Below, one piece after another: positions 44,379-53,869 of a stretch of 64,000 nucleotides of DNA. The notes beneath the pieces are model-generated. The model worked only from the letters and a program-made list of their open reading frames with translations, was not told the DNA's origin and made no database searches. The position numbers and the translations under genes were made by a program. The stretch lies in NCBI RefSeq assembly GCF_007990265.1, contig NZ_BJWH01000010.1, positions 1-64,000 of the forward strand, read 5' to 3'. Each line of letters starts with the position of its first letter. Position 1 is the first letter of the stretch. This stretch comes from Cellulomonas terrae. Lineage in GTDB: Bacteria; Actinomycetota; Actinomycetes; Actinomycetales; Cellulomonadaceae.

Positions 44379-46001
44379 TCAGCGAGGTGTCACGCCGTTG
44401 TGGCGCAGGCCCCAGATGGCGGAGTCGGTGAGCGCCTCCCACGACGCCTCCAGGAGGTTCGGACCGACACCCACCGTGCTCCACGAGCTCTGCCCGTCGG
44501 TCATCTCGATCAGCACGCGCGTGACCGCGTCGGTGCCGTGCATCGAGTCGAGGATGCGGACCTTGAAGTCGATGAGCTCGAACGTCTCGAGCTCGGGGTA
44601 GACCCGGACGAGGGCGTGCCGCAGGGCGTGGTCGAGTGCGTTGACGGGCCCGTTGCCCTCACCCGTGCTCACGACACGCTCCCCGCCGGCGTGCAGCTTG
44701 ACGGTCGCCTCGGCCGTCGCGGGCGTCCCGCGGCCGCCGCTGCGCTCGACGATGGTCCGCCACGACTCGACCCGGAAGTACTGCGGGCGGTGGCCGTCGA
44801 TCTCCTCGAGCAGGAGCAGCTCGAACGACGCGTCGGCCGCCTCGTAGGTGTACCCGTTGGCCTCGGCGTCCTTGACGCGGTCCGTGACCCTGCCGAGCAG
44901 CTCGGGGCGGCCGCTCAGGTCGAAGCCCAGCTCGCGGCCCTTCAGCTCGATCGACGCGCGGCCCGCCATGTCGGAGATCAGCATCCGCATGTCGTTGCCG
45001 ACGTCCGCGGGGTCGATGTGCTGGTAGAGGTCGGGGTCCACCTTGATGGCGGACGCGTGGATGCCGGCCTTGTGCGCGAACGCGCTGGCGCCGACGTACG
45101 GCGAGCGGGCGAACGGCGAGATGTTCGTGATCTCGCTGATGGCGTGCGCGATCCGGGTCAGCTCCGGCAGCCCGCCCGGCAGGTCGTCCGTCACCTTGAG
45201 CACGGGCAGCCCGTACTTGAGCTGGAGGTTGGCGACGACGGCGAGCAGGTCGGCGTTGCCGGTGCGCTCGCCGTACCCGTTGACGGTGCCCTGGACGTGC
45301 GTGCACCCGGCCTCGACCGCGGCGAGCGTGTTGGCGACGGCGCAGCCGGAGTCGTTGTGCGCGTGGATGCCGAGCACGGCGTCGGGACCGACGGCCCCGC
45401 GGATCTCGTGCACGATCTCCGCGACCCACGTGGGGACCATGCCCCCGTTCGTGTCGCAGAGCGCCACGACCTCGGCTCCCGCCTCGAACCCGGCGAGCAC
45501 CGCGGCGCGCGAGTACGCGGGGTCGAACCGGTAGCCGTCGAAGAAGTGCTCGGCGTCGACGACCACCCGGCGCCCCTCGCGCACGAGGAACGCGACGGTG
45601 TCCGCGATCATCGCGATGTTCTCGTCGCCGGTGGTCCGCAGCGCGCGCTCCGCGTGCCGCAGGTCGTGCTTGGCGACGAGCGCGACGACCGGGGCCTCGG
45701 AGTCGACGAGCGCACGGACCTGCGGGTCGTCGACCGCCCGCGTCCCCGCCTTGCGGGTGCTGCCGAACGCGGCCAGCTCCGCGTTGCGGAAGTCCAGCTC
45801 CTTGGCGGCCCGCTTGAAGAACTCGGTGTCCTTGGGCACCGCGCCCGGCCAGCCACCCTCGATGAAGCCGACACCGAGCTCGTCGAGCAGGGGTGCGATC
45901 GCCAGCTTGTCGGCGACGGAGAGGTTCATCCCCTCCTGCTGGGCGCCGTCGCGCAGGGTCGTGTCGTAGACCTGGAACGGGGTGCTGCTGGGGACGGACA
46001 C
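44379..46001 (-). CDS. cimA: (R)-citramalate synthase
   Basis: The 540-residue enzyme condenses pyruvate and acetyl-CoA to citramalate, the first step of threonine-independent isoleucine synthesis. It has the DRE-TIM N-terminus VYDTTLRDGAQQEGM, ALCDTNGGMVP, the HxH metal motif IHAHNDSGCAVAN, NGYGERTGN and a C-terminal regulatory domain (about 400-535) of the LeuA allosteric type. The combination of this motif set and length fits CimA rather than LeuA. Start GTG 46001 has AGAGAG upstream. It is preceded by an approximately 200-nt leader with a candidate attenuator, so isoleucine may control transcription as well as activity. Confidence 0.93.
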   Translation of the reverse strand: MSVPSSTPFQVYDTTLRDGAQQEGMNLSVADKLAIAPLLDELGVGFIEGGWPGAVPKDTEFFKRAAKELDFRNAELAAFGSTRKAGTRAVDDPQVRALVDSEAPVVALVAKHDLRHAERALRTTGDENIAMIADTVAFLVREGRRVVVDAEHFFDGYRFDPAYSRAAVLAGFEAGAEVVALCDTNGGMVPTWVAEIVHEIRGAVGPDAVLGIHAHNDSGCAVANTLAAVEAGCTHVQGTVNGYGERTGNADLLAVVANLQLKYGLPVLKVTDDLPGGLPELTRIAHAISEITNISPFARSPYVGASAFAHKAGIHASAIKVDPDLYQHIDPADVGNDMRMLISDMAGRASIELKGRELGFDLSGRPELLGRVTDRVKDAEANGYTYEAADASFELLLLEEIDGHRPQYFRVESWRTIVERSGGRGTPATAEATVKLHAGGERVVSTGEGNGPVNALDHALRHALVRVYPELETFELIDFKVRILDSMHGTDAVTRVLIEMTDGQSSWSTVGVGPNLLEASWEALTDSAIWGLRHNGVTPR

Positions 46002-46117
46002 GATGTGCTCTCTTCGGTGCGGGACGGGCGACGTCGTTGCTGCTGTTCGGGAGGAGCCGGCGGGGGTGTGCCGGTGCAGTCGACGGTAGCCGGGGCGGGG
46101 GTGGTGCTCCGACCAAC

Positions 46118-46146
46118 AAAAAGACCCCCCGGGGTACGGGAGGTCT
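46118..46146 (-). terminator. Intrinsic terminator inside the cimA leader
   Basis: On the minus strand AGACCTCCCG (46146-46137) pairs with CGGGGGGTCT (46131-46122), ten pairs including one wobble, with a 5-nt loop and five T residues (46122-46118) after it. Real U-tracts are rare in this window. It lies about 115 bp before the cimA start and no minus-strand gene precedes it, so it is probably an attenuator. Confidence 0.8.
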
Positions 46147-46171
46147 GCGCGTCAGCTGGTGGGCCGACGCG

Positions 46172-46201
46172 CTACTCGATAATGAGGGAGGAGCGGGTCA
46201 C
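46172..46201 (-). CDS. Candidate leader peptide of cimA (MTRSSLIIE)
   Basis: GTG 46201 opens a nine-codon frame ending in TAG (46174-46172) with consecutive Leu-Ile-Ile codons (CTC ATT ATC); ATT is a rare codon here. A weak promoter (GTGACC 46237-46232, 18 nt, CACCAT 46213-46208) would make it leaderless. Its stop begins a 7-bp arm GCGCGTC (46172-46166) that pairs with GACGCGC (46153-46147), which abuts the terminator. The same layout is seen before ilvB. An upstream in-frame GTG would give a 15-residue form. The rest of 46002-46357 is leader and the divergent promoter. Confidence 0.5.
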   Translation of the reverse strand: MTRSSLIIE

Positions 46202-46357
46202 CCGTGCATGGTGGCACACGTCACCATCCGCGGTCACGTGTTCCATCCCTTGGACGCCCAGGTCAGGCGCGTCCGCGCGAGCGGATGTCCGATTCGCTAG
46301 CGTTGGCCCGTGTCGTCACCGGCGGCGCGCAGGTCGGTCGACCTCCAGGAGGCAGCG

Positions 46358-46963
46358 ATGTCCACCCCCACTCCCCCGCCGGAGCGCCAGTCCGCCTACC
46401 CGCACCAGACACCGCCGACGCCGCCGCCCGCACCGGCGCCGGTCGCGGACCCGACGATGGTCTACCCCGCGGCGGTGCAGCCGGCTCCTGTGCAGCCCGT
46501 GCCCGTCGCCGCCGCCCCGGTGGCTGCCGTCCCGACCGGACCGTCGATCGACGCCGGGAGGTTCTGGGCCGGCGTCGTGGCCACCGCGCTGGTGACGGCC
46601 CTGATCGGGCTGGTCGGGGTGCTGATCGTCGACCAGATCCTCGACATCGAGCTCGTCGTCAAGGACGTCTTCGGGACGGAGTCCACGGGTGCCGCGTACG
46701 TCGTCGGAGGCGTGCTCTGCTCGGTCCTCGCCGGCGGCCTGCTGCACGTGCTGGTGCTGTCCACCCCCAAGCCGCGCGCGTTCTTCGGCTGGATCATGTT
46801 CCTGGGCACCCTGACCGCGGCGCTGCTGCCCCTGACGTGGACCGACGTGCTCGAGTCGGCGATCGCGTCCGGGCTGGTCAACGCCGTCATCGGGATCGCG
46901 ATCTGGACGCTCCTGCTGGGCGTCCTCAGCCGCACCCTGCGCCCCGGGACCCTCGTCGACTGA
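46358..46963 (+). CDS. Pro-rich membrane protein with about four helices
   Basis: The 201-residue protein has a Pro/Ala-rich cytoplasmic N-terminus (about 1-65) and four hydrophobic helices (near 70-92, 113-132, 138-160 and 165-190). I recognise no family. ATG 46358 has AGGAGG 5 nt upstream. A TAGCGT box at 46298-46303 would start transcription near GTG 46310, which is also in frame and would give a leaderless form 16 residues longer. It is divergent from cimA. Confidence 0.7.
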   Translation: MSTPTPPPERQSAYPHQTPPTPPPAPAPVADPTMVYPAAVQPAPVQPVPVAAAPVAAVPTGPSIDAGRFWAGVVATALVTALIGLVGVLIVDQILDIELVVKDVFGTESTGAAYVVGGVLCSVLAGGLLHVLVLSTPKPRAFFGWIMFLGTLTAALLPLTWTDVLESAIASGLVNAVIGIAIWTLLLGVLSRTLRPGTLVD

Positions 46964-46979
46964 TCAGCTGATCGCCCGC

Positions 46980-47011
46980 GCCCGCGACCCCGCAGGAACG
47001 GGGTCGCGGGC
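46980..47011. terminator. Bidirectional terminator between the membrane protein gene and ilvE
   Basis: A perfect 12-bp stem (46980-46991 with 47000-47011) with an 8-nt loop lies between convergent genes. Confidence 0.8.
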
Positions 47012-47047
47012 TCGTGGCGAGGCCGTACGCGGCCAGGCCGGCGGCCA

Positions 47048-48166
47048 CTACGCCAGGCGGTGCAGCCAGCCGTGCCGGTCGGTCGCGCGCCCGTACTGGA
47101 TGTCCGTGAGCTCGGCGCGGATGCGCGTCGTCACCGGGCCGGCCGCACCGTCCCCGACGGTGAGGTCGAAGTCGTCGCTGGCCAGCCGGCCGATGGGAGT
47201 CATGACGGCGGCGGTCCCGCACGCGAACACCTCGCGCACCGACCCGTCGGCGAGGCCCTCGCGCAGCTCCGTCAGCGGGATCTGCCGCTCGGACACCTCG
47301 TGGCCCGCGTCCGTGAGGAGCCGCAGGATGGAGGACCGCGTCACGCCTTCGAGGATCGAGCCCGACACCGGGGGCGTGGCCACGCTGCCGTCGGCGTGCA
47401 CGACGAACACGTTCATCCCGCCCAGCTCCTCGAGCTGCGTGTTGGTCGACGCGTCGAGGAAGCACACCTGCTCGAAGCCCTTGGCGTAGGCCAGCTGCTG
47501 CGGGAGGAGGCTCGCGGCGTAGTTGCCGCCGCACTTGGCGGCACCCGTCCCGCCGGCGCCGGCGCGGTGGTACTCCTGGTCCACCCAGATGGACACCGGT
47601 CGCACACCACCGGCGAAGTACGGCCCGACCGGCGACGCGATGACGAGGAACTCCGCCTCCAGCGTCGGCCGCACGCCCAGGAACGTCTCGGAGGCGTACA
47701 TGAACGGGCGCAGGTACAGGCTCGTCTCCTCGCCCGACGGCACCCAGGCCAGGTCGGTCGCGACGAGCGCCTCGATCGCGCCGAGGAAGTCCTCCTCGGG
47801 CAGCTCGGGCAGCGCCAGCCGGCGGGCGGAACGCGTGAACCTGGCGGCGTTGTCGCGCGGCCGGAACGTCCACACCGAGCCGTCGGCGTGGCGGTACGCC
47901 TTCATGCCCTCGAAGATCTCCTGGCCGTAGTGCAGCACGGCCGTCGCCGGGTCCATCAGCAGCGGCCCGTACTTCTCGACGCGACGACCGGTCCAGCCGG
48001 ACTCGTTCGAGTACGTGATGCGGGCCATGTGCTCGGTGAACACGGTGCCGAACTTCGGCGACGCGAGCGCTGCCTCGCGCTGCTCGTCGGGGACGGGGGC
48101 GTCGGTCCGGGTGATCTCGAAGAGGTCGACAGAGGACGGAGTCGTGGGGTTCGTGAGAGTGCTCAT
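47048..48166 (-). CDS. ilvE: Branched-chain amino acid aminotransferase
   Basis: The 372-residue PLP enzyme carries out the last step of isoleucine, valine and leucine synthesis. Motifs include VLHYGQEIFEGMKAYR, RFTRSARRLALPELP, KCGGNYAASLLPQ (the Lys region) and the fold IV signature with VFACGTAAVMTPIG. The length fits class IV enzymes of actinobacteria. ATG 48166 has GAAAGG upstream. It follows leuB on the same strand after 95 bp without an obvious terminator, so it may be cotranscribed. Confidence 0.94.
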   Translation of the reverse strand: MSTLTNPTTPSSVDLFEITRTDAPVPDEQREAALASPKFGTVFTEHMARITYSNESGWTGRRVEKYGPLLMDPATAVLHYGQEIFEGMKAYRHADGSVWTFRPRDNAARFTRSARRLALPELPEEDFLGAIEALVATDLAWVPSGEETSLYLRPFMYASETFLGVRPTLEAEFLVIASPVGPYFAGGVRPVSIWVDQEYHRAGAGGTGAAKCGGNYAASLLPQQLAYAKGFEQVCFLDASTNTQLEELGGMNVFVVHADGSVATPPVSGSILEGVTRSSILRLLTDAGHEVSERQIPLTELREGLADGSVREVFACGTAAVMTPIGRLASDDFDLTVGDGAAGPVTTRIRAELTDIQYGRATDRHGWLHRLA

Positions 48167-53718: not shown

Positions 53719-53756
53719 AAAAGCCCCTCGAGCCACGTACGGGCTGGACGAGGGGC
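53719..53756 (-). terminator. Attenuator terminator of the ilvB leader
   Basis: On the minus strand GCCCCTCG (53756-53749) pairs with CGAGGGGC (53730-53723), with an inner AGCC/GGCT stem in the loop, followed by TTTT (53722-53719). It lies 60 bp before the ilvB start. Just upstream is GCGCGCTC (53764-53757), which pairs perfectly with GAGCGCGC (53803-53796) in the leader ORF. Confidence 0.85.
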
Positions 53757-53788
53757 GAGCGCGCTGACGGGGCCTGTGCGGGAGGCCT

Positions 53789-53833
53789 CTAGCCGGCGCG
53801 CTCAGGAAGTACTACGAGAAGGATCGTCTGCAC
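53789..53833 (-). CDS. ilvB leader peptide (MQTILLVVLPERAG)
   Basis: GTG 53833 opens a 14-codon frame ending in TAG, with the run Ile-Leu-Leu-Val-Val-Leu encoded by ATC CTT CTC GTA GTA CTT. CTT and GTA are rare in this GC-rich sequence. A ribosome starved of branched-chain aminoacyl-tRNA would stall here and change the folding of the downstream terminator. The start codon is 7 nt from a strong -10, so the leader is itself leaderless. Attenuation of ilvB is known in other actinobacteria. Confidence 0.88.
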   Translation of the reverse strand: MQTILLVVLPERAG

Positions 53834-53840
53834 CCGTTGG

Positions 53841-53869
53841 ACACTACGCCCACGTCTCCGATGTGTCAC
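53841..53869 (-). promoter_or_regulatory. Promoter of the ilvB-ilvN-ilvC operon
   Basis: GTGACA (53869-53864), a 17-nt spacer and TAGTGT (53846-53841) form a good housekeeping promoter. Start would be near 53834, directly at the leader peptide GTG. Confidence 0.75.

Follow-up and report, generated by a model that had tools for sequence, protein, structure and literature searches.

The closest described counterparts of the leader analysed here lie before ilvB genes. In Corynebacterium ilvBNC (the ilvB-II motif), an ORF with branched-chain amino acid codons begins about one base from the transcript end and is followed by a hairpin and an adjacent terminator (PMC11857589; PMC10272879). The C. 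glutamicum hairpin, which comes after the control codons, is presented as an antiterminator that has three bases in common with the terminator (PMC11857589); alternatively, the antiterminator is drawn from the P1 loop. In the Mycobacterium tuberculosis ilvB1 leader, in which the control codons encode LVVI, stalling is said to let an upstream antiterminator structure form and a ribosome at the stop codon to prevent this, the structures being described as mutually exclusive; when LVVI was replaced by AAAA, expression was low and independent of the inhibitor, and induction was abolished (PMC13236596). The Streptomyces leader peptides ilvL, leuL, and trpL are short ORFs rich in the product amino acid, and most such ORFs of S. 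lividans are reported to be leaderless, with TAnnnT as the -10 and nTGACn as the -35 element; the main text of that study does not mention cimA or citramalate (PMC8079986). The Escherichia coli trp attenuator combines a leader peptide with cognate codons and an intrinsic terminator with a 2:3 antiterminator and control codons that lie inside arm 1. In the E. coli pyrBI leader, a ribosome close behind the polymerase is described as reducing termination without an antiterminator; the signal there is UTP, acting through polymerase pausing, the ribosome is translating rather than starved, and no hairpin brings it close (PMC10135430). For other amino acid pathways, a 2005 survey by Seliverstov and colleagues reports no conserved structures (PMC1262725), and among the literature matches listed, a scope that mostly leaves subscription papers aside, we found no description of an attenuator or leader peptide for cimA.

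The window, i.e. the 64,000-nucleotide stretch of Cellulomonas terrae DNA that was analysed, contains a cimA gene preceded by the elements collected in Table 1, which an earlier note had read as a candidate attenuator. The nine-codon minus-strand ORF that it had placed in the leader is present, with every coordinate correct. The codons CTC, ATT, and ATC are also as described; they do not, however, run directly into the stop codon because GAG intervenes between ATC and TAG. The hairpin formed by arms 1 and 2 (hairpin 1:2), for which a 7-bp core had been given (GACGCGC, 46153-46147), extends to 10 bp, and its partner arm does begin in the leader stop codon. Both sequence reading and a terminator scan bore out that it abuts a terminator with a T-tract; over positions 45500-47500, the scan gave a single terminator place with three overlapping hits, compared with 0.2 expected in shuffles. 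The ilvB leader of the window indeed shares this layout, its hairpin and terminator being directly adjacent (0 nt). We note, as a point against the attenuator, that a threonine ammonia-lyase above the family cut-off is encoded in the same genome, so that CimA is not the sole route but one of two likely entries to isoleucine.

Table 1. Features of the cimA and ilvB leaders, numbered by position in the window
Feature	Position	Strand	Basis or remark
cimA, citramalate synthase	44379..46001	-	TIGR00977, 598 bits vs cut-off 450
Intrinsic terminator and T-tract (cimA)	46118..46146	-	Stem-loop 46146-46122, 10 pairs, loop of 5
Hairpin 1:2, second arm	46147..46156	-	Adjoins terminator
Hairpin 1:2, first arm	46163..46172	-	Starts at G of leader stop codon
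Leader ORF, VTRSSLIIE and TAG	46172..46201	-	GTG ACC CGC TCC TCC CTC ATT ATC GAG TAG
Leader Ile codons	ATT 46183-46181; ATC 46180-46178	-	Sequence reading
Extended -10, TGC-CACCAT	46208..46216	-	6 nt before leader GTG
-35-like element, GTGACC	46232..46237	-	18-nt spacer to -10
Inverted repeat TCCA-N5-TGGA, possible regulator site	46242..46254	-	Just upstream of -35
Upstream neighbour of cimA, divergent gene	46310..46963	+	
ilvB leader, cimA-leader layout	53719..53846	-	-10 TAGTGT; ORF VQTILLVVLPERAG 53833-53789
ilvB leader, hairpin arms	53803-53796 and 53764-53757	-	Sequence reading
ilvB leader, terminator stem	53756-53723, then T-tract	-	Sequence reading; ilvB itself identified

Searching proteins with CimA yielded 80 loci, mainly from Cellulomonas, Cellulosimicrobium, Isoptericola, Sanguibacter, and Oerskovia, from which L035, L038, and L054 were left out for too little upstream sequence. 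The terminator is kept in 76 of the 77 remaining relatives, L069 being the only one with no terminator upstream of cimA. The contig of L068 ends too early to include the leader ORF, which leaves 75 relatives assessable for hairpin and Ile codons; all 75 have the hairpin and at least one Ile among the last four leader codons and, having been chosen by protein, give Ile counts free of model bias. L113 and L076, which lie on contigs of equal length and carry an identical leader, are probably a single genome counted twice. Their leader peptides end in LIIE, SIID, LIIV, IVIA, LILT, RIS, and similar sequences. The check that had been proposed, a search of relatives for a short ORF that is conserved and whose Ile codons precede a terminator, thus succeeded in the Cellulomonadaceae and, as described below, far beyond them.

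The two helices also covary. In an alignment of 59 distinct segments (A1; L063 was excluded, its arm 1 lying inside the ORF), 96.7% of cells were paired when both helices were taken together (98.1% for hairpin 1:2 and 95.2% for the terminator stem), compared with 40-58% when the partners were slid by 1-3 columns. Eight of the 20 pairs change on both sides, six of them among the 10 pairs of hairpin 1:2 and two in the terminator stem, and there were 77 double-change cells in A1 compared with 24.7 in shuffles. The count of further pair types (18) is a weaker sign, being reached by 40 of 500 shuffles. At the sixth pair of the hairpin, 16 of the 76 assessable leaders, a total that counts the window, have a mismatch or G-U. 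Because a conserved structured RNA stands here before an amino acid gene, and because unusual T-boxes exist before actinobacterial ileS (PMC1262725), we considered whether the element might sense isoleucine or tRNA-Ile by direct binding, as a riboswitch or T-box would. The Rfam search of the window gave no match at the gathering score, and the two sub-threshold matches in the cimA leader (ar14 and a virus element) are not T-boxes. Further, the loop length is not conserved, and the conserved unpaired stretch is the in-frame end of the ORF, which makes direct binding a most improbable explanation.

The control codons were located relative to the hairpin in 158 of 159 rows, 148 of them cimA leaders; the remaining row is gapped where the hairpin begins, and six further loci were not included. 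The codons at -11 and -8 from the first hairpin base encode Ile in 115 and 126 of the 148, respectively, and at least one of the two does so in 135 leaders when read in frame, compared with 4 and 7 for the two alternative frames; the Ile counts among class-wide matches lean upward, since these were picked with a covariance model of the cimA leader (R1) that includes the Ile codon positions. Among the 13 leaders without an in-register Ile, 12 carry Ile codons that are shifted by one or two bases, and the last, L183, is a misplaced match. The earlier note had described a Leu-Ile-Ile leader peptide. The Ile part is conserved, but the Leu part is not, as position -14, where the window has Leu, is occupied by Leu in 68, Ile in 38, and Val in 14 of the 148. 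As judged from the aligned leaders, the conserved signal is isoleucine, not leucine.

The codons follow the gene downstream. At -11 and -8, 241 of 296 codons are Ile in the 148 cimA leaders compared with 11 of 46 in 23 ilvB leaders. Outside the class, 20 loci were examined, comprising 16 ilvB leaders with mixed Val/Leu/Ile codons, two leuA leaders (L245 and L260; NLLLT and GLLLR), one cimA leader (FIIIP), and one leuB leader (VIIIE); the model trained on Ile thus still finds non-Ile codons where the downstream gene differs. The leuS leaders of the order (L175 and L179; MASTLLLP and MSHQELLTG) carry Leu codons, as the leuA leaders do. The leader ending in VIIIE (L258:371-448) lies before leuB, which encodes 3-isopropylmalate dehydrogenase. 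This is an unexpected gene for Ile codons, which would make sense there if LeuB serves the citramalate route in L258.

The choice among Ile codons is also unusual. ATT accounts for 39 of 108 Ile codons in the leaders compared with 4 of 1649 in cimA coding sequences (77 loci, same clade; the Fisher test on ATT ignores relatedness) and for none of the 137 Ile codons in seven ORFs of the window taken as genes. Being read by wobble, ATT could heighten the sensitivity of the leader to a shortage of charged tRNA-Ile. The codon data also speak to a rival reading, in which the ORF arose by chance and the locus is an ordinary terminator or a stand-alone small RNA. A spacing of ~85 nt from promoter to terminator, as in the window, would in itself yield a short RNA. 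Yet in-frame Ile codons matched to the downstream gene and the enrichment of a rare codon are not expected of a chance ORF and, because the upstream gene is divergent, no nearby minus-strand gene in the window needs a terminator; we consider this explanation very unlikely. Overall, the conserved ORF, Ile codons, hairpin, and terminator favour the attenuator reading, and we conclude that the element is, with high probability, an isoleucine-responsive, ribosome-mediated transcription attenuator of cimA.

The promoter of the leader had been called weak. This agrees with a strict sigma-70 promoter scan, which found none at the cimA leader, but not with the extended -10 element, which is conserved. 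Upstream of the ORF, 133 of 148 leaders carry the motif T-G/A-N-C/T-A-NNN-T, and an in-frame start codon follows it by 6 or 7 nt in 115 of these 133; the other two frames show no start-codon peak at 6-7 nt, one of them having 22 start codons directly after the motif. The distance from start codon to hairpin varies from 7 to 16 codons, with one of 22. The -35-like element of the window resembles the nTGACn of S. lividans (PMC8079986). This arrangement suggests an extended -10 element with transcription starting at the start codon, so that the ORF would probably be read from a leaderless RNA. Further upstream, TCC-N7-GGA is found in 33 of the 53 leaders with enough upstream sequence, 26 of which have it at a single fixed distance, compared with 0.016 per locus expected by shuffling. 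The strict form TCCA-N5-TGGA, which in the window lies ~38 nt upstream of the extended -10, is found in 16 of the 53. A regulator may thus act on cimA too via this inverted repeat.

We then compared the geometry of the leaders with what a ribosome would cover. The front edge of the ribosome lies ~15 nt downstream of the first P-site base (+15). Using this value, a ribosome with the first Ile codon in its A site has its front edge on the first hairpin base, and a ribosome at the stop codon covers the entire first hairpin arm. In 29 of 148 leaders, the TAG lies elsewhere (e.g. IIGRRAG, where the ORF takes in the first arm), and in 28 of them ATT or ATC starts 7-15 nt before the hairpin. We then used constrained folding, in which the ribosome-covered bases were blocked (the folds start 15 nt before the stop codon and are blind to pseudoknots). 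Over the 148 leaders, hairpin 1:2 had a median probability of 0.89 for a ribosome whose A site holds the first Ile codon and 0.59 for one that holds the second, falling to 0.00 for a ribosome that has reached the stop codon. The full terminator had a median probability of 0.99-1.00 in each state, with some rows down to 0.00, and two leaders fail or nearly fail to give this picture. The first arm of the terminator (arm 3) is free as long as the second has yet to be transcribed (median pairing, 0.04); its pairing exceeded 0.5 in 1 of 148 leaders when the first Ile codon occupied the A site and in 19 of 148 once the ribosome had reached the stop codon. The two failing leaders and these 19 count against the attenuator. 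As the control, the same folding of E. coli trpL recovered its known antiterminator (0.64 stalled compared with 0.16 at the stop codon).

These results set the cimA leader apart from the trp scheme. It has the cognate-codon ORF, read here from sequence, and the intrinsic terminator before the gene that mark leader-peptide attenuators of the trp/his type. However, neither a 2:3 antiterminator nor control codons inside arm 1 are found in the cimA leaders, and a ribosome stalled on Ile does not mask arm 1 in the folds but leaves the hairpin free. With no antiterminator predicted and a free hairpin during the Ile stall, the trp scheme does not apply, and because the leader resembles a leader-peptide attenuator and lacks two defining trp/his traits, we class it as a variant. 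Several other pairings were considered and rejected. First, a loop-to-terminator antiterminator in the style of ilvB-II would require a C-rich loop, which many leaders have but L093, L107, L208, and others do not. Second, constrained folding predicted no pairing between arms 2 and 3. Third, pairing with upstream ORF bases was judged by eye; the C-rich stretch of the window ORF is not conserved. Fourth, a conserved GTTG that follows the T-tract could pair with the loop of the hairpin in some leaders but not in others (also by eye).

The order of parts in the cimA leader is that of the C. glutamicum ilvBNC and M. tuberculosis ilvB1 leaders, in which the hairpin is the proposed antiterminator, and as in C. 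glutamicum, the control codons stand directly before it. The cimA leader differs from both in its gene and in its signal, isoleucine rather than mixed Val/Leu/Ile codons or LVVI. Hairpin 1:2 might likewise act as a hidden or kinetic antiterminator that competes with the terminator via border bases or a pseudoknot. Yet the hairpin and the second terminator pair are separated by 1 nt in 140 of 148 leaders and by 0-2 nt in all 148, with no border bases shared in any of them and an unconserved loop. Further, the two hairpins coexist in 142 of 148 complete-RNA folds, and arm 3 is unpaired in the stalled state, although the folds do not see pseudoknots. We regard such competition as possible but short of probable.

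Alternatively, hairpin 1:2 could be mainly a pause hairpin that holds the polymerase for the ribosome, the timing of pause release deciding termination. The terminator arm has a conserved C-G step ~9-11 nt downstream of the hairpin, an arrangement that resembles hairpin-stabilised pauses. Constrained folding has the hairpin melted by a ribosome at the stop codon, and a pause at the first hairpin has been proposed for C. glutamicum (PMC11857589). A pause alone gives no reason, however, for higher readthrough on starvation, and we consider a role mainly in pausing unlikely.

For the attenuator, we instead propose, as possible though likewise short of probable, a physical effect of the stalled ribosome on the terminator. 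The length of the hairpin varies from 22 to 77 nt (the wider rows are fitted to the model), and the codon-hairpin and hairpin-terminator contacts are nearly constant, which leads us to propose a chain without slack. Transcription would start at or next to the GTG, and the nine-codon leader would probably be translated from the leaderless RNA. With ample charged tRNA-Ile, the ribosome would reach the TAG, cover the first arm, and depart, and the terminator would stop RNA polymerase; with the hairpin melted by a ribosome at the stop codon, the freed bases would provide the slack for the terminator to fold, as it would also do with no ribosome on the leader. When charged tRNA-Ile is scarce, the ribosome would wait at ATT or ATC with its front edge at the base of hairpin 1:2, which would then fold abutting the terminator. 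The resulting ribosome-hairpin-terminator chain would hinder closing of the terminator hairpin, and the polymerase would read into cimA. As in pyrBI, a ribosome near the terminator would block termination without an antiterminator. Against all models of this kind stands the S. coelicolor ilvB leader, in which changed control codons were without effect, as recounted in the 2005 survey (PMC1262725).

In the genome of the window, R1 matches only the cimA leader itself, up to an E value of 1, so that the ilvB leader is evidently too different for this model. Matches were found in 138 of 297 genomes and 55 of 94 genera of the order (E 0.01), in 229 of 394 genomes and 93 of 138 genera of the class (E 0.001), and in 50 of the 246 genomes of a phylum draw, 39 of the 50 lying outside the class. 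Of 106 matches that were placed in their surrounding DNA, 94 lie before cimA, 9 before ilvB, 2 before leuS, and 1 before a gene that could not be named; L170 is a weak match of this last kind. In the class, where 310 of 394 genomes have cimA, 222 have leader and cimA, 7 a leader match only, 88 cimA only, and 77 neither (Fisher p 5.5e-27, relatedness ignored). The 88 cimA-bearing genomes without a match count against the attenuator. Among 20 of them that were examined, three (L238, L240, and L241) carry two Ile codons in a leader that has diverged, and no leader was visible upstream of cimA in the other 17. We conclude that the element is widespread, not universal. We also noted two peculiar groups. 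L181, L182, L238, and L240 belong to one genus (g111, genomes of 6-11 Mb); their hairpin encloses long inserts, with the stop codon within it, and a separate model would find more leaders of this type. L223, L226, and L239, all of family f45, have no leader and, by eye, a TAGACT box ~7 nt before the cimA GTG, where cimA itself may be leaderless.

It is conceivable, though rather doubtful, that actinobacteria share one modular leader before cimA, ilvB, leuA, and leuS, in which the codons are exchanged and no antiterminator is needed because a stalled ribosome and the hairpin physically prevent terminator folding. With their codons matched to the downstream gene, these leaders amount to a codon swap made by nature, and the lack of a predicted antiterminator is relevant to how actinobacterial ilvB leaders switch, a question that dates from 2005 (PMC1262725). 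If the attenuator reading is true, cimA, whose product opens the citramalate route to isoleucine, would have a specific switch across large parts of a phylum with antibiotic producers among its members.
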